NCBI GenBank assembly: GCA_027309085.1
Contig: DAIDDL010000014.1
Span: 1 to 64,000 of the forward strand
Source: Sulfobacillus sp.
GTDB taxonomy: Bacteria > Bacillota > Sulfobacillia > Sulfobacillales > Sulfobacillaceae
DNA length: 64,000 bases
Direction: 5' to 3'
Below the pieces are notes generated by a model. The model was not told the DNA's origin. It searched no databases and saw nothing but the letters and a program-made list of their open reading frames with translations. Shown here one piece after another: positions 18,322-41,866 of the stretch. Numbering within the stretch: position 1 is the first letter of the stretch; every line of letters starts with the position of its first letter. Both the position numbers and the translations under genes were made by a program.

Positions 18322-18570
18322 TTGACAACCCATTGGACAGCCTTTTACCTCGACCGTGCCGTACGGTATCGTCGGATTTTCTTAAGGTTCGCCAAGCCTC
18401 GGCACCACCTGGCGATTCTCCTCCTCGCGCTATTGAGCATGGTTGTCATTAGCGAAATGCCCACCCCGTGGGTTGTGATCACGCAACTACCGTTTTTAGT
18501 CTTGCCGGTTTGGCTATATGGTTCCCATGCTTCTTGGGCGATCATGCGCCGCCGTTCCTCGCGGTCCTAA
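18322..18570 (+). CDS. Small membrane protein with TTG start
   Basis: AAAAAGGACGG lies upstream of TTG 18322. A hydrophobic stretch of ~35 residues ([20 protein letters not shown] and onward) makes one or two membrane spans, flanked by basic ends. Function unknown. The rare start and modest ribosome site lower confidence. Confidence 0.45.
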
Positions 18571-18664
18571 TCGGTTCCCTCGCGCATACCGCCCCCCTGC
18601 ACGGGGCGGTATGATGAAGGTGTTCTGCACCATACAAAAACCCACTCAAAGGAGCTGTTCACTC

Positions 18665-19057
18665 ATGTTGAATCGCATTATTCTCATTGGTCGTCTCACC
18701 CGTGACCCGGAACTCCGTTACACACCGCAAGCCGTGCCGGTGGCCTCGTTTTCGCTCGCCGTCGATCGGCCCTTCACCAATCAGCAGGGCAACCGGGAAG
18801 CCGACTTCATTGATATTGTCGCGTGGCGCAAGCTTGGGGAGACCGTCGGCAATCATCTGACCAAGGGCCGGTTGGTGGCCGTCGAAGGCCGCTTGCAGAT
18901 CCGGTCTTACGAAGCCCAAGACGGCACTAAACGCCGCGTCGCGGAGGTCGTGGCCGATTCCGTCCAGTTCCTCGACTTCCCCAAGGACAAAGCCGGGGCA
19001 CCCACTGGCACTATGCCGGAGGACGCCCCGGAGTTGCCTGACGACTTGCCATTCTGA
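18665..19057 (+). CDS. ssb: Single-stranded DNA-binding protein, copy 1
   Basis: A 130-aa SSB with the OB fold at residues 1-105 ([45 protein letters not shown]) and the acidic tip DDLPF, which recruits partner enzymes. It coats ssDNA during replication, transfer and recombination. It is shorter than chromosomal Firmicute SSBs (~170 aa) because the linker is reduced. AAAGGAG precedes ATG 18665, and a hairpin (ATACCGCCCC at 18586 with its complement) lies upstream. A second copy at 22976 shares the 3' flank too, showing a block duplication. The ERF protein at 61680 is a likely partner. Confidence 0.95.
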
Positions 19058-22665: not shown

Positions 22666-22975
22666 CGTGCTCATGTCCCCCATGGGTCTACTCGTCTTTC
22701 GCCGGCGCGGGCAGACCCCGCCGGGCCCTGGTTGAGTTGTGTGCTATACGGTTCGTATGGTGATCACCCGTGGGCGTTAGCGGCTCCGCTACCGCACCGC
22801 GTCAGGAAACACTTCCCGATTCTCAGGCGGATTTCACACGCTGTTCTCCGTGATCTCTTCGCGGTCTGCGCATGGCCATCAGGGAGCGTCGCAGGCTGTC
22901 GTGCCCTACGCGGGCACGACGTGTTGGTCGTGTTCTTCTCAACACAAAAACACTACTCAAAGGAGCTGTGCCTTC
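22666..22975. other. 310-bp gap without a supported gene
   Basis: No ORF with a ribosome site is seen. A GTGCCC-TACGC-GGGCAC hairpin and the downstream words CGTGTT and CAAAGGAGCTG resemble the leader of the gene at 22081. The rest shows no structure I can name. Confidence 0.5.
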
Positions 22976-23368
22976 ATGTTAAACAAAATCCTCTTAATTG
23001 GTCGCTTAACCCGGGACCCGGAAATGAAGTACCTCGCCAACGGCACGCCGGTCGTGAACTTTTCGGTGGCGGTGGACCGTCCGTTCACCAACGCGCAGGG
23101 CAACAAGGAAACGGATTTCATTGATATTGTCGCGTGGAGAAAGCTGGCCGAGACCGTGGCGAATCACCTCACGAAAGGTCGGCTCGTGGCCATCGAAGGC
23201 CGCCTGCAGATTCGCAGCTACGAGGCGCAAGACAGCTCTAAGCGCAAAGTCGCTGAGGTCGTGGCCGATTCCGTCCAGTTTCTCGACTTCCCGAAAGACC
23301 AGGCCGGAGTACCGGCCGGCGGCATCCCGGAGGACACCCCGGATTTTCCCGACGACTTGCCATTCTGA
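22976..23368 (+). CDS. ssb: Single-stranded DNA-binding protein, copy 2
   Basis: A second 130-aa SSB with the same OB-fold landmarks ([39 protein letters not shown]) and tail DDLPF. It matches copy 1 at most positions, with changes clustered in residues 17-50 and the linker. The sequence after the stop (GACGACCCTATCCA and a GGCCCGGG hairpin) is also shared, so ORF plus 3' flank were duplicated together. Having two SSBs may allow different loading in transfer and replication, or give dosage. AAAGGAG precedes ATG 22976. Confidence 0.95.
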   Translation: MLNKILLIGRLTRDPEMKYLANGTPVVNFSVAVDRPFTNAQGNKETDFIDIVAWRKLAETVANHLTKGRLVAIEGRLQIRSYEAQDSSKRKVAEVVADSVQFLDFPKDQAGVPAGGIPEDTPDFPDDLPF

Positions 23369-33490: not shown

Positions 33491-33515
33491 CGTATCATTC
33501 ACCGCGGCAGGACGT

Positions 33516-33542
33516 GCCCGGCCCGTGTACTGAGGGCCGGGC
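33516..33542. terminator. GC-rich hairpin
   Basis: GCCCGGCCC and GGGCCGGGC (9 bp) with a 9-base loop; TTTGTC follows. Lies before the DUF3850 gene. Confidence 0.6.
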
Positions 33543-33579
33543 TTTGTCACGGAGATCTGATGCAAAAAGGAGAAAACCT

Positions 33580-33864
33580 ATGGTCCATGTGCTCAAAATC
33601 TGGCCTGAAGACTTCCAGCCGGTGCTCACCGGGGCCAAAGCGATTGAGTTGCGGTCGGAAGCGGATCGGACGTTTGCCGTGGGCGATACCCTCCTGCTGC
33701 GTGAATATGTGCCCGACACCTCCCCGCCGTATACGGGGCGCACGGTTGCCGTCGTCGTTACACACATTGTGCGTGACCCGTCGGGTTCCTGGCTCGCTCC
33801 GCACGTGGCTGCGCTCTCTATTCGGCCATATTTCGCTCGTCATCCCGAGTTACCCGGCCTCTAG
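33580..33864 (+). CDS. DUF3850 (ASCH-like) protein, short copy
   Basis: The 94-aa product has the DUF3850 pattern: HVLKIWPEDFQPVLTGAKAI, ELRSEADRTFAVGDTLLLRE, YTGRTVAVVVTHIV. The ASCH/PUA-like fold binds RNA or modified nucleotides. A longer paralogue lies at 41273. AAAAAGGAG precedes ATG 33580. Confidence 0.82.
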   Translation: MVHVLKIWPEDFQPVLTGAKAIELRSEADRTFAVGDTLLLREYVPDTSPPYTGRTVAVVVTHIVRDPSGSWLAPHVAALSIRPYFARHPELPGL

Positions 33865-34274: not shown

Positions 34275-35126
34275 TTGAAATGGGAACACATCGAAGCCGC
34301 TGCTAAAAAACGTGAAGTCCCCACTATCTGGATGTTTCGCGAACTGTGGCAACGTATGGTATTGGCCACCATCATGAGCATGGATACAACCCATCGTATC
34401 GTGTTCCAAGGCGGTACGGCTTTACGATTATGTTATGGCAACACACGATTTTCCGAAGACTTGGACTTTGTGATGAATCAGAGGTCTTTACCGTATTCGT
34501 TATCGGAACCTATTCTTCCGTTTCATCAAATCGTCGAACAGATGCGTCCTATGCTTCCTCACCCTTCTAATATCACATGGAAAATTCAAAAAGCTACACC
34601 GACCCTGCAACGCACGGTTTTAACGGCCCAGCTTCCCGACAGTACGAACGTACGTCTGCATCTTGAATTTGTTACCGTGCCAAGCTATGATCCTAGAATA
34701 TTGACTCTTTCATCTCTGCGCGATTCTCAACCGATTGTCGTTGAAAGTCGTGAAGAAATTTTAGCGGATAAAATTGTGGCGTTGGGCCTTCGACCTTATA
34801 TTAAAGGTCGTGACATTTGGGATGTGGCATTTTTACAAGCATCTCATGTTCCCGTACATGTTGATTGGATCCTACAAAAGGTTCAGGATTACGGTGCTCA
34901 ATCTCTGGTCTTTTACCAAAATCTTGTGCAACGTCGCCAGATATTACAAAACCCTGAGACCCTCATGCAATTTCGTCAAGAATTGTCACGATTCATTGCG
35001 CCTCAACAGGTCGCCACATTGGATAGCCAACAGGCGTGGGCCCAGATGACTCAACAGTGTGTCGACATGATCCAGAACACTACGGCTCATTTCACAGGAC
35101 CTCGGAGAGGAGGACCGCATCGATGA
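34275..35126 (+). CDS. AbiEii-type nucleotidyltransferase toxin
   Basis: IVFQGGTALRLCYGNTRFSE and DLDFVM form the nucleotidyltransferase GG..R..DxD site of the AbiEii family, with a later lysine-bearing ILADKIVALGLRPYIKGRDI block. AbiEii toxins modify tRNA or other targets and are neutralised by AbiEi. 283 aa is normal. The start is TTG 34275 with GAGGTGAG upstream. Unlike the classical operon, the toxin precedes the antitoxin, whose ATG overlaps the toxin stop. Base composition is AT-rich, suggesting recent acquisition. Predicted role: maintenance or abortive infection. Confidence 0.85.
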   Translation: MKWEHIEAAAKKREVPTIWMFRELWQRMVLATIMSMDTTHRIVFQGGTALRLCYGNTRFSEDLDFVMNQRSLPYSLSEPILPFHQIVEQMRPMLPHPSNITWKIQKATPTLQRTVLTAQLPDSTNVRLHLEFVTVPSYDPRILTLSSLRDSQPIVVESREEILADKIVALGLRPYIKGRDIWDVAFLQASHVPVHVDWILQKVQDYGAQSLVFYQNLVQRRQILQNPETLMQFRQELSRFIAPQQVATLDSQQAWAQMTQQCVDMIQNTTAHFTGPRRGGPHR

Positions 35127-35779
35127 ACACACCAACCCTTCAGCAATGGCTTCATGAACAACCCCAGCGCATTCTGTTGACTGCGGAGATTGCTCGTGCC
35201 CGAGGAGAGTCTGTCGATTTCACGCATGGTCTTCTTGCCTCGTGCCGAGACCCCCTACCGCTATTTCACGTCGGAGATCGTTGGGTCAATCCTTGGACGA
35301 CAGACAATCCGGAAACAATTGTTCCTCTCTTATATCCGGATGGGTATGTCTCGCTCGAATGGGCTCTCGCCCGGTGGGGCTGTTTGTCCCAGCAACCGAC
35401 AGTCTTAAGTGTGGTGACGCCGTCTGCTGTCCCGCATGATCCGCAAGCTGTCACGCATCGCTGGTCATTGGAGTGCCTTTCGCCGTTATCGAATCGGCAT
35501 CCCGCCCCGATCCTCACCGCCGAAAACGTGCCCGTGGCCACCGCCGCCTACGCGTTAATCGACTGGGCCTATCATCGCTGGCTGCAACCCGGCGCCTCTC
35601 TCTCTCTTTTGCAAAGTTTTTTGGACGATTGTGACCGCGACGTCGTGGACGACGATCTCATCGCTTTACAGCAATATGCGGACCCCCTCATTCGTCAATT
35701 AGCCGCCACTATCATTCGCCAGTGGCCTGACGACAGCCATGTCTTCGTGGCTCCATTCAACACTACTCGACAGCCTTAA
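35123..35779 (+). CDS. AbiEi-like antitoxin
   Basis: The 218-aa product starts with a winged-helix stretch and contains LYPDGYVSLEWALARWGCLS followed by PTVLSVVTPSAVP, the typical AbiEi segment. AbiEi binds the operator and blocks its toxin. ATGA overlap with the upstream toxin ensures co-translation. GAGGAGG lies before ATG 35123. The reversed order (toxin first) is unusual for AbiE. Confidence 0.7.
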   Translation: MNTPTLQQWLHEQPQRILLTAEIARARGESVDFTHGLLASCRDPLPLFHVGDRWVNPWTTDNPETIVPLLYPDGYVSLEWALARWGCLSQQPTVLSVVTPSAVPHDPQAVTHRWSLECLSPLSNRHPAPILTAENVPVATAAYALIDWAYHRWLQPGASLSLLQSFLDDCDRDVVDDDLIALQQYADPLIRQLAATIIRQWPDDSHVFVAPFNTTRQP

Positions 35780-36375: not shown

Positions 36376-36514
36376 TGGCTTCTCATCGGCACCAGGACGC
36401 TTATAAATAGTCTCTGGCCCGATCGCCGTTTAGACGGTGCAAAAAAATGAGCTGGGTGCGATAGCCGCCCCTTTTCGGGCGGCTCTGGATGTTTGATAGA
36501 GTTTTGTCCCATCC

Positions 36515-36649
36515 ATGGCGCCGTCCGGCGAGATGACGGACGCGGCCTCGGAGCGGCTCCCTGTGTTGAGTACCTCCGCGGTCGGCCACGCATCGTCTGG
36601 GTTCTTCGAGAACACCTGGTGCGTGAGCCGGGGCAGGACCGGCCGCCAT
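36515..36649 (+). ncRNA. Structured RNA element R, copy 1
   Basis: ATGGCG at 36515 pairs with CGCCAT at 36644-36649, closing ~135 nt. Inside, CGTCCG-GCGAGATGA-CGGACG forms a hairpin; the 9-base loop is identical in copy 2 while the stem differs but still pairs. GCCGG-GGCAGGA-CCGGC near the end is identical in both copies (26 bases conserved from 36626). A GCCGCCC/GGGCGGC hairpin lies just upstream (36463-36484), also matched in copy 2. Together with elements S and tRNA this occupies the 638-bp gap 36376-37013, which has no supported gene. I cannot assign a known RNA family. Confidence 0.55.
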
Positions 36650-36737
36650 GCCTATCCGACATGCGTTGAATACTCTCTCGCCTTTTCGAGGGACGACGCG
36701 CCACCTCGGCGCTAGGTGCATGCCGGTTGTGTTTTAA

Positions 36738-36817
36738 GACTGGTGGATGCTCGCACCCTGCGTGGAGCGGGTATCCCCGCGGCTGGCCATTCGGTGGCCG
36801 GTCGCGGCCCTCCAGTC
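36738..36817 (+). ncRNA. Structured RNA element S, copy 1
   Basis: Exactly 80 nt closed by GACTGG/CCAGTC. Two inner hairpins: a 13-bp stem with loop CTGCGT and a 12-bp stem with a 5-base loop, giving a three-way junction. It matches copy 2 (38205-38284) at 71 of 80 positions. One change pair (T-A here, C-G there) is compensatory within the first stem; one A-A mismatch is found here. Confidence 0.6.
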
Positions 36818-36834
36818 GAACAATAAAAACATTC

Positions 36835-36925
36835 AGGCCCGTCGTTCAACGACAGGACAGCGGTCCCCCCCGAAAGGGACTGACGCAAAACCGCCGATGG
36901 GGGTGCGACTCCCGCCGGGTCTCCA
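36835..36925 (+). pseudogene. tRNA-Trp-like sequence with disrupted anticodon loop
   Basis: AGGCCCG/CGGGTCT forms an acceptor stem like that of the intact tRNA-Trp at 38321. D-arm, GCGGT/ACCGC anticodon stem and a T-arm-like segment align, but the anticodon loop is ~25 nt (including CCCCGAAAGGG) instead of 7, the D-loop GG is lost and TTCGA has become TGCGA. A CCA follows. Probably a decayed duplicate; a spliced insert is less likely. Confidence 0.6.
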
Positions 36926-37013
36926 ATTTTTCACGATTCGTAGCATACTTGACCATCCTTCTGCATACAATGGCCGTAAGCGATTGTTGACAAGCTCGGA
37001 AGGATAGCCCATT

Positions 37014-37202
37014 ATGAGAAAAAAGAGGAAGCTCAAAAGGGGGGCGCGAAAAATGGCGAAGCCAGTGAAGATCCAGGAACGAGTTGACGTTCAGCAGGTC
37101 ACCATTCCCCCGGCTTCAGAGGTCAATGCGGCTTTTATGAAGGTCGGCGATGCCATCCAAAAGCGCCACATCGAGGCGTTCAAGCGATTGGCCGATCAAT
37201 AA
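37014..37202 (+). CDS. Putative antitoxin of the Doc-type toxin (62 aa)
   Basis: The small basic protein (MRKKRKLKRGARKMAKPVKI start) with a helical C-terminus (FMKVGDAIQKRHIEAFKRLA) sits directly before the Doc-type toxin, overlapping it as TAATG. Size, order and coupling fit an antitoxin. It lacks an obvious Phd/YefM N-terminal domain, so the DNA-binding role is uncertain. GGAAGGA lies before ATG 37014. Confidence 0.6.
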   Translation: MRKKRKLKRGARKMAKPVKIQERVDVQQVTIPPASEVNAAFMKVGDAIQKRHIEAFKRLADQ

Positions 37203-37630
37203 TGCGTTGGGTGTCGCTCACAGAAGCCATCCTGTTCCAAGAACGGGTGGTTGGGGATACCGGTGGATCCATCGGAGTCCTCGATCAAGGAAAATTGGAG
37301 GCCGCCATTGCGCGGCCTCTCACTGTGGTATTCGACTACGAGCCCTTTCCGACGCCGGCTTTGAAGGTGGCGGCGCTCATTGAGAGTATCATTACTACCC
37401 ACCCCTTTCTCGATGGCAATAAGCGAACGGCGATGCGGTTGGGATTGGCGCTTTTGGAGTTCAATTTCCCGCGGACTGGGACCGCGTCAGATGTCGACAT
37501 TGAAGCTATCGCCGTCGGGGTGGCTGAAGGAACAGTGGCTTTTCCAGAAGTTGCGCGATGGCTCGAAGGGCTTTACATGTGCTCGAACCCGACGCCTGTC
37601 GAATGTGACCCTTCGGATATAGGCCCTTAA
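37202..37630 (+). CDS. doc: Doc/Fic-family death-on-curing toxin
   Basis: The Fic motif HPFLDGNKRTAMRLGL is intact near residue 64, preceded by KLEAAIARP and AALIESIITTHPF as in Doc proteins. Doc phosphorylates EF-Tu and stops translation; related Fic proteins AMPylate targets. 142 aa is usual. The ATG shares a base with the upstream stop, so toxin is made only with antitoxin. The operon lies between two copies of the R-S-tRNA module, and may have inserted between them or have helped to duplicate them. Confidence 0.9.
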   Translation: MRWVSLTEAILFQERVVGDTGGSIGVLDQGKLEAAIARPLTVVFDYEPFPTPALKVAALIESIITTHPFLDGNKRTAMRLGLALLEFNFPRTGTASDVDIEAIAVGVAEGTVAFPEVARWLEGLYMCSNPTPVECDPSDIGP

Positions 37631-37839
37631 TTCCTTTCGTGCAACACTTCTTTAAACCTCCGCGGCCCTAAAAGCTGGGACTTTAGGCCCGATTGTGGCC
37701 CGTTCACTCGGTCAAAAATTCCCGCGTATGGAAATCACGAATCGCGGCCTCTTATCCTTCCTCTGCTAATTGTGCGACAATCATACCGTCTGATCCTCTC
37801 ATACACCGCCCTATCGGGCGGCGTGTCGTTTGTCCTATC

Positions 37840-37942
37840 ATGGCGCAGGTGGCGAGATGACACCGTGCGACGCAGCGGCCCTACGTCCGGTTGTCCGGAC
37901 GTCGTCTGTGACGGGCCCAGCCGGGGCAGGACCGGCCGCCAT
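37840..37942 (+). ncRNA. Structured RNA element R, copy 2
   Basis: ATGGCG/CGCCAT closes 103 nt. GGTG-GCGAGATGA-CACC keeps the loop of copy 1 on a different stem. A perfect 8-bp ACGTCCGG/CCGGACGT hairpin occupies the variable middle, and the terminal GCCGG-GGCAGGA-CCGGC hairpin is identical to copy 1. A CCGCCC-TATC-GGGCGG hairpin lies upstream (37806-37821). The 816-bp stretch 37631-38446 contains only this module (R, nested hairpin, tRNA-like, S, tRNA-Trp). Confidence 0.55.
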
Positions 37943-37961
37943 GCAGTAACTGATTTTTCGG

Positions 37962-38032
37962 AACACCCCGTCAGGCCGCACCAAAAGGGTGCGGCCTGAC
38001 GCGCAAAGCATGGGGAATCCTCACGGGGTGTT
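37962..38032 (+). other. Nested hairpin in the RNA module
   Basis: AACACCCCGT (37962) pairs perfectly with ACGGGGTGTT (38023). Within it CAGGCCGCACC and GGTGCGGCCTG form another perfect 11-bp stem. Present only in copy 2 of the module. Confidence 0.6.
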
Positions 38033-38045
38033 CTGAGAATCGAAC

Positions 38046-38171
38046 CTGCCGGTGACGAAAATGGCAACCGTAGCGGAGGCGGGGAAACCGATGGTTGATA
38101 CCCCAAACCCGCAGCCACTAAAGGAACCATCCCCGAGTTGCGGCACTGTGGGTTCGAGTCCCACCCGGCAA
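38046..38171 (+). other. tRNA-like sequence with oversized core
   Basis: A perfect T-arm (GTGGG-TTCGAGT-CCCAC at 38148-38164) is followed by CCGGCA, which pairs with TGCCGG at 38047. A 3-bp D-arm with GG in the loop fits. The ~125-nt length is at least 35 too long; GATGGTT/AACCATC closes a 28-base loop where the anticodon should be. No usable anticodon can be named. May be a decayed tRNA or part of a larger RNA. Confidence 0.4.
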
Positions 38172-38204
38172 GGATAAAGGAATTGCCCGAGGGCAATCCC
38201 GCAA

Positions 38205-38284
38205 GACTGGCGGACGCCCGCACCCTGCGAGGTGCGGGTGTCCACGCGGCTGGCCATCGGGTGGCCGGTCGCGGCCCTCCAGTC
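38205..38284 (+). ncRNA. Structured RNA element S, copy 2
   Basis: 80 nt closed by GACTGG/CCAGTC. The first inner stem pairs 13 of 13 (GGACGCCCGCACC with its partner, one G-T), the second 12 of 12. Loops CTGCGA and TCGGG. The complete pairing in this copy next to the intact tRNA-Trp suggests it is the functional one. Unknown family. Confidence 0.6.
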
Positions 38285-38320
38285 TTTTATCCCAAAATCG
38301 AAAAATTAAAAAATCTACCT

Positions 38321-38394
38321 AGGCGCGTCATTTAACGGTAGGATAGCGGTCTCCAACACCGCCTATGGGGGTTCGACTCCCTCCGCGTCTGCCA
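38321..38394 (+). tRNA. trnW: tRNA-Trp (CCA anticodon)
   Basis: A full cloverleaf: acceptor AGGCGCG/CGCGTCT, D-arm ATTT-AACGGTA-GGAT, anticodon arm GCGGT-CTCCAAC-ACCGC with anticodon CCA, 5-base variable loop, T-arm GGGGG-TTCGACT-CCCTC, discriminator G and encoded CCA. It carries U11-A24 in the D-stem, as I recall for Bacillus tRNA-Trp, a pair linked to UGA readthrough. Encoded at the end of the RNA module. Confidence 0.88.
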
Positions 38395-41165: not shown

Positions 41166-41272
41166 TCTGCCTGCCGGCAGCCCCGGCATATCGTCGGCGA
41201 CGTGTTCGTCGAGGCTGCGAACCGTAACGTATGACTGGCCTCTCTCAATTTCGCCGCAAAGGAGAATTTCTG

Positions 41273-41866
41273 ATGAACCACACCCTGAAAATCGTTCCCC
41301 CGCACTTCGATGCCGTGGCTGCCGGCCAGAAAACGCTCGAAATTCGCCGCGAGGATGACAAGACGTTTGCCGTCGGGGACGTGCTGACGCTCCGAGAATG
41401 GGATGACCGCCGTCTGCCAGCCCGCCAGCACGATCAATACCGGCTGCTCCACGATCTCCATATCAGCCCGCCATCCAGTGGGGGAGAAAGAGAGCATACC
41501 GAGTATCAGAAGGCCCTCACGCAAGGGTACACCGGCCGCGGCTGCCGCGTGCGGGTGACGCATGTCCTGCGCGAGCCGCCTTTCGTTCCCCAGGGCTATG
41601 CGGCCTTAAGCATCCGTTTGCTCTCGCAACCACCTGCGGCCATCACGACCCCCGGCGGCGTGCTGACTGTCCAAGGGGAGGACGATTCCGACCCCGCGCA
41701 ATATCCCGGCTATGCCATTGCCGTGGACGGCGAAATCGCCGCCATTGTGGAATGGCATCCCGACTATCAGGCCGTGGTCTTGCGCACCTATACCACGCGC
41801 GATGACCTGGAGGCCCAGGCCTATCACCGCTGGGACACGGGAGAGACTTTGCCGGAATTGGAGTAA
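41273..41866 (+). CDS. DUF3850 (ASCH-like) protein, long copy
   Basis: [20 protein letters not shown] and [20 protein letters not shown] match DUF3850 and the paralogue at 33580. [15 protein letters not shown] closes the domain after an insertion of ~35 residues. The C-terminal ~75 residues are extra ([19 protein letters not shown]). Probable RNA or nucleotide binder. AAAGGAG precedes ATG 41273. Confidence 0.8.

Follow-up and report, generated by a model that had tools for sequence, protein, structure and literature searches.

Cloverleaf RNAs without an anticodon in phages and Sulfobacillaceae plasmids, candidate mimics of tRNA

The DNA analysed here (the window, a stretch of 64,000 nucleotides) sits on the 86-kb contig G000:C55 of a Sulfobacillaceae genome, among whose named relatives are Sulfobacillus harzensis and S. 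benefaciens. The contig looks like a conjugative plasmid, with a weak Replic_Relax match, an actin-like partition protein, ERF and ArdC. Two similar single-strand-binding protein genes (18518-19057 and 22850-23368) and two DUF3850 proteins (33514-33864 and 41231-41866) are also found in the window, and the same contig bears a type III CRISPR effector-like gene set, recognised by eye (L183 12093-18268). An AbiEii gene (PF08843; 34275-35126), followed by an overlapping ORF (35036-35779) in the place of AbiEi, lies 1.4 kb upstream of the first element of interest, R1; some AbiEii-type nucleotidyltransferases act on tRNA ends.

The locus itself (Table 1) comprises two series of structured RNA elements on either side of a Doc toxin gene. 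The original prediction had described, twice in the same order, a GC hairpin, an element R closed by ATGGCG/CGCCAT, an element S and a tRNA-Trp gene, the first disrupted and the second intact. The GC hairpin is present ahead of both R elements, as it is by eye ahead of most other R copies, and the closing stem amounts to 7 bp once a flanking C-G pair is included. The toxin between the two series was confirmed as Fic/Doc, and a Pfam search with the small ORF upstream of it gave no match. The second tRNA gene is indeed intact, showing a tRNA fold with a CCA anticodon, and it is an extra copy, a chromosomal tRNA-Trp being present at G000:C139. Three elements between R and the tRNAs had escaped the original prediction, namely M, which follows R1, and the hairpin H and element X, which follow R2 in that order.

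Table 1. Elements of the locus, with positions in the window
Feature	Position	Strand	Basis
GC hairpin before R1	36466..36485	+	Sequence
R1, R-family tRNA-like RNA, longer-arm subtype B	36514..36650	+	CM R1 E 3.5e-11; CM R2 83.2 bits, E 1.5e-14; MFE fold is the cloverleaf
M, conserved three-way-junction RNA	about 36655..36728	+	Three more copies in G031
S1, three-way-junction RNA, local duplicate of S2	36736..36817	+	Alignment; folding against shuffles
T1, tRNA-Trp-derived gene, 18 nt inserted between anticodon bases 34 and 35	36835..36925	+	Alignment with copies in G005, G017, G026 and intact tRNA-Trp genes
Small upstream ORF, putative Phd-like antitoxin	37014..37202	+	Position; same-order homologue in G017/G026
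Fic/Doc toxin	37202..37630	+	PF02661 E 2.4e-12
GC hairpin before R2	37806..37821	+	
R2, R-family tRNA-like RNA, compact subtype A	37839..37943	+	CM R1 E 7.6e-23; CM R2 69.3 bits, E 1e-11; MFE fold is the cloverleaf
H, very stable long hairpin	37950..38042	+	z -7.9
X, tRNA-shaped RNA without anticodon; canonical T arm, extended anticodon and variable arms	38046..38171	+	Copy in G005
S2, three-way-junction RNA	38203..38284	+	Alignment; folding against shuffles
T2, intact tRNA-Trp (CCA), additional to the chromosomal one	38321..38394	+	ARAGORN, Rfam

The proposal that the two series are copies of a single duplicated module held for S alone. S1 and S2 are 89% identical, as had been stated, over an aligned length of 82 rather than 80 nt; both fold far better than shuffled sequences (z -4.0 and -5.7), and no further copy was found in 34 Sulfobacillaceae genomes beyond this pair. 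R1 and R2, in contrast, share the identical 26-nt run AGCCGGGGCAGGACCGGCCGCCATGC noted earlier (36626-36651 and 37919-37944), which forms their 3' ends, and do not align outside this arm. Each is nearer to copies elsewhere than to the other, R2 being 94% identical to a copy in S. harzensis (G031) and R1 87% identical to a copy in G003, in both cases within unrelated flanks. R1 and R2 represent two subtypes within a single family of structured RNAs. The M copies of S. harzensis fold as a three-way junction, whereas the copy in the window has another MFE; a near-consensus promoter (TTGCGA, 17 nt, TATAAT) stands directly before two tandem M elements in that genome (L035 1955-2170), suggesting that M may be transcribed on its own.

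The R element consists of a 7-bp closing stem (P1), a 2-nt linker, a stem of 4-5 bp (P2) with the 9-nt loop GCNAGAUGA, a variable arm, and a 5-bp stem (P4) with the 7-nt loop GGCAGGA that abuts P1 without a gap. This geometry is constant in all 24 tabulated copies, with a 5-nt P4 loop in one copy. The units measure about 99-224 nt, and the variable arm, of 47-172 nt, takes the place of the anticodon arm. Three helices covaried in a first covariance model, for which 16 copies from Sulfobacillaceae were used, and the phage copies were gathered by searching IMG/VR for the R arm motifs, so that the invariance of their loops is partly given by construction. When phage hits were selected solely on the two loop motifs, P1 paired at the predicted offset in 28 of the 54 (offset -1 being equivalent to 0, since P2 was allowed 4 or 5 bp), compared with 0-5 at any offset displaced by two columns or more; P2 and P4 are nearly perfect in these 28, unlike in the remaining hits. 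The P1 sequence differs in nearly every phage. The covariance-model check put forward with the original prediction, which had staked the case on homologues with compensatory changes, clearly found them: in an alignment of 31 copies 99% of cells are paired, with 149 double changes against 37 in shuffles and a covariation score of 0.78 against 0.17 when shuffled and 0.05-0.15 when slid, and all seven P1 pairs vary on both sides. The rows of this alignment were filtered on pairing, and the 54 hits collected by loop motif serve as the unfiltered control. Covariation was thus observed in all three tRNA-like helices, and R very probably adopts a tRNA-like cloverleaf fold, which for R2 is also supported by the consensus fold of 10 subtype A copies.

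The variable arm is closed by an extra helix (longest-helix sum 227 against 183 +/- 5), which in several phage copies would form a pseudoknot, its 5' half being predicted in the loop of another hairpin. Of 37 members, 6 have NCCA immediately behind an acceptor of 7 or 8 bp, where chance was estimated to give one to two. This end, borne by roughly one member in six, is less firmly supported than the fold, and most copies, including both in the window, have no encoded CCA. Counting G-U against A-C mismatches to determine the strand of folding gave 13 versus 10.

Of 34 Sulfobacillaceae genomes, 15 carry R, with about 30 copies detected by the covariance model. A further 35 contigs, all phage sequences of IMG/VR, repeat its geometry on stems of unrelated sequence, and the neighbours there are genuine phage genes (portal, protease, scaffold, head, endolysin, RecT). 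In a sample of 299 Bacillota genomes the covariance model gave no match outside the Sulfobacillaceae. A broad model, run as a specificity control under strict filters that may miss weak copies, found nothing outside its own genome among about 400 Bacillota genomes and 50 others drawn from many bacterial phyla. A pattern scan of genome contigs for the 3' arm returned mostly coding coincidences outside the Sulfobacillaceae. The 2.1-kb region of the window had no blastn match in plasmid and phage records, and the phage copies had none, or short chance-like ones only, in phage records. Reading of the sequences upstream of R revealed no conserved promoter. One phage element (L003 1109-1240) has the exact R 3' arm without a recognisable GCNAGAUGA arm and is matched weakly by the R model (E 0.002).

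The original prediction could match neither R nor S to a known family, and in the Rfam scan only the tRNA was matched. No family of Rfam 15 fits R at permissive thresholds, be it in the window, its relatives or the phages, and no description of R was found in a literature search of incomplete coverage. The likeness to tRNA (RF00005) is nevertheless extensive, since R has a 7-bp acceptor, a 2-nt linker, a D-like arm and a T-like arm of 5 bp and 7 nt stacked on the acceptor, occurs in tRNA clusters and ends in NCCA in some members. It differs from tRNA in having no anticodon arm with a 7-nt loop, in its T-loop, GGCAGGA instead of UUCRANY, and in the conserved GCNAGAUGA at the D position, and neither RF00005 nor ARAGORN matched R in the window, its relatives or the phages. 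The tRNA-like domain of tmRNA likewise has no normal anticodon, but R has no canonical T-loop, and there was neither an ARAGORN tmRNA call nor an above-threshold Rfam tmRNA match. Phage tRNA clusters, that of T4 among them, have long been known to encode stable RNAs of unknown role. The species 1 and 2 RNAs of T4 (rnaC and rnaD) resemble R in being small, stable and without a known role within such a cluster, and rnaC, like X, has a canonical T arm at its end. Both were rejected as R members, as CM R2 gives no match in L273.

The original prediction had also compared the locus with the large phage RNAs GOLLD and ROOL. Structured RNAs beside tRNAs amid phage-type elements were borne out, and GOLLD and ROOL are likewise structured RNAs of unknown function, carried by phages and prophages close to tRNA islands (PMC12286853). 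The analogy of scale was not: GOLLD and ROOL are multi-domain, cage-forming RNAs of about 660 to over 800 nt, whereas R is a discrete, single cloverleaf of roughly 100-225 nt that falls short of 600 nt and matched neither of their Rfam models. By these tests R belongs to none of tRNA, GOLLD/ROOL, T4 species 1/2 or tmRNA, and yet it is tRNA-shaped.

In the Sulfobacillaceae, R is placed 5' of tRNA-Trp or tRNA-derived genes in many copies. About 12 of the 30 copies are followed by such a gene on their own strand, mostly within about 400 nt and often at a spacing of 10-100 nt; where one in that orientation precedes R, it always belongs to an earlier copy. At an estimated one tRNA gene per 70 kb, the chance expectation is far below one. 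This arrangement, together with several phage copies that lie 14-42 nt ahead of an ORF start, is what would be seen if R were a cis-acting leader, transcribed to control the processing, stability or antitermination of the following tRNA or gene. We consider this explanation unlikely, given that the downstream genes are wholly different (tRNA-Trp, DNA methyltransferase, lysis, scaffold, capsid), that the copy in L244 has its own terminator-like hairpin behind it while P1 in L255 runs into TTTTTTT, and that a leader would not predict tRNA-like ends.

Two further elements at the locus are shaped like, or derived from, tRNA. T1, predicted earlier to be a disrupted tRNA, is a tRNA-Trp whose anticodon is interrupted between C34 and C35 by 18-19 nt of inserted sequence; the identical site of this insert in alignments with G005, G017 and G026 argues against simple decay. 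X combines acceptor, D and T arms with a long variable arm, and a hairpin replaces its anticodon loop. Its shape is taken from the homologue in G005 (83% identical, a five-arm cloverleaf, z -3.9), because the MFE of the window copy does not show the cloverleaf. If R, T1 and X were merely relics of decaying tRNA genes, the missing discriminator base and T-loop U55 of T1 and the clearly degraded R copies in L043, L174 and L177 would be expected; we regard this as very improbable, since compensatory changes preserve the R stems across phages and genera, and the T1 insert keeps its site in three other genomes.

Toxin-antitoxin genes are frequent neighbours of R: Doc adjoins it in the window, G017 and G026, SocA/Panacea in G005 and G031, and BrnT in G029 and G032 (that of G029 being named through an 80% DNA match to the G032 locus). 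An HTH protein with an M78 peptidase lies by R in G003, a SecB-containing cassette in G009 and, by eye, a HicB-like protein in G002. This company may reflect plasmid maintenance genes, and it also fits an exchange of cassettes at R. In the latter case R would be a DNA-level exchange site marking cassette borders, as integron attC sites do, which would suit the toxin-antitoxin cassettes found between two direct R copies in the window, L035, L037, L041 and L045, as well as the 26-nt arm common to unlike R subtypes. By eye, the ends of R read ATGGCG/CGCCAT, where attC sites have RYYYAAC/GTTRRRY and are used by an integrase. Moreover, a 1064-bp stretch that starts inside the R 3' arm is 99.7% identical between G017 and G026, while the R bodies differ; this breakpoint could stem from ordinary recombination or from sequences of low-coverage MAGs having been joined in assembly at a 25-nt repeat. 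Phage R copies are mostly single in the stretches examined, the unrelated P1 sequences leave no common crossover sequence beyond the loops, and an exchange site would not predict tRNA geometry or NCCA ends, all of which makes this reading improbable. In G026 an IscB-like gene is inserted behind an R copy (L041 1246-2328), with a sub-threshold HEARO match in L145/L165; R as the omega RNA of IscB was rejected, the HEARO match being beside R but separate from it.

In phages, many R copies lie away from tRNAs, in regions of head, lysis or recombination genes, while those of L247 and L241 are in or beside tRNA clusters and that of L245 is flanked by T-arm-like sequences. The copies in L241, L244, L280, L291 and L292, located between portal, protease, scaffold and capsid genes, would accord with a trans-acting phage RNA whose role, for example in packaging, is structural or otherwise apart from tRNA enzymes. 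Many copies occur elsewhere, however, those on plasmids have no nearby head genes, and the tRNA linkage and NCCA ends would be left unaccounted for; we give such a role little credence.

The exact tRNA layout without an anticodon suggests instead that R is probably a tRNA mimic, and the geometry combined with the tRNA neighbourhood points to an RNA that uses the tRNA machinery in trans. Taken whole, the reading of R as a structured RNA family of phages and Sulfobacillaceae plasmids, built like the tRNA cloverleaf and mimicking tRNA in trans, stands, in our judgement, at about even chances. R would be transcribed together with adjacent tRNA or tRNA-like genes, might then be trimmed by tRNA-processing enzymes, and would work in trans, its likeliest use being to occupy, as a decoy or an insensitive substitute, the tRNA-attacking enzymes of hosts and rival elements; T1, with its blocked anticodon loop, and X, tRNA-shaped without an anticodon, may have arisen from the same strategy. 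Against tRNA nucleases, mobile elements supply tRNAs whose anticodon loops are altered (PMC10264068; PMC13096335), and one phage tRNA has been suggested as a possible decoy (PMC13096335). Phage tRNAs have been proposed or shown to counter tRNA-cutting defences, and a tRNA mimic, possibly a decoy, was therefore judged likeliest. Those tRNAs decode, whereas R, T1 and X cannot do so as they stand. Several points weigh against mimicry: the D- and T-loops of R are non-canonical and its tRNA-like elbow is a prediction, so that tRNA enzymes might not recognise it; toxin-antitoxin genes are common on plasmids anyway; and most copies have no encoded CCA, with many phage copies away from tRNAs. We put forward only tentatively that R founds an undescribed class of phage and plasmid tRNA mimics, spread across unrelated phages and engaging tRNA enzymes in trans, accompanied in the Sulfobacillaceae by tRNA-Trp genes with a blocked anticodon loop, and more hesitantly still that R serves as a decoy, for instance for defence and toxin enzymes that cut or modify tRNA.

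One short model recognises R in dozens of unrelated phages, which makes such RNAs testable, and tRNA mimics, if real, would join the known conflict between hosts and mobile elements over tRNAs. The family is also a warning that gene finders miss tRNA-shaped RNAs without anticodons. Other elements recur around R. A conserved hairpin, N, with the loop core GCGUAGCGRAAU, stands just behind it (L035 3266-3277, L036 3453-3464, L047 2552-2611, L175 3453-3464), and a small protein that combines a coiled coil with a membrane anchor at its C terminus is encoded upstream of or near it (L035 1-198, L179 635-934, L047, L040). In S. harzensis, a tRNA array with three R units includes a gene for Thg1, a tRNA-His guanylyltransferase-like protein (PF04446; L035 5815-6531).
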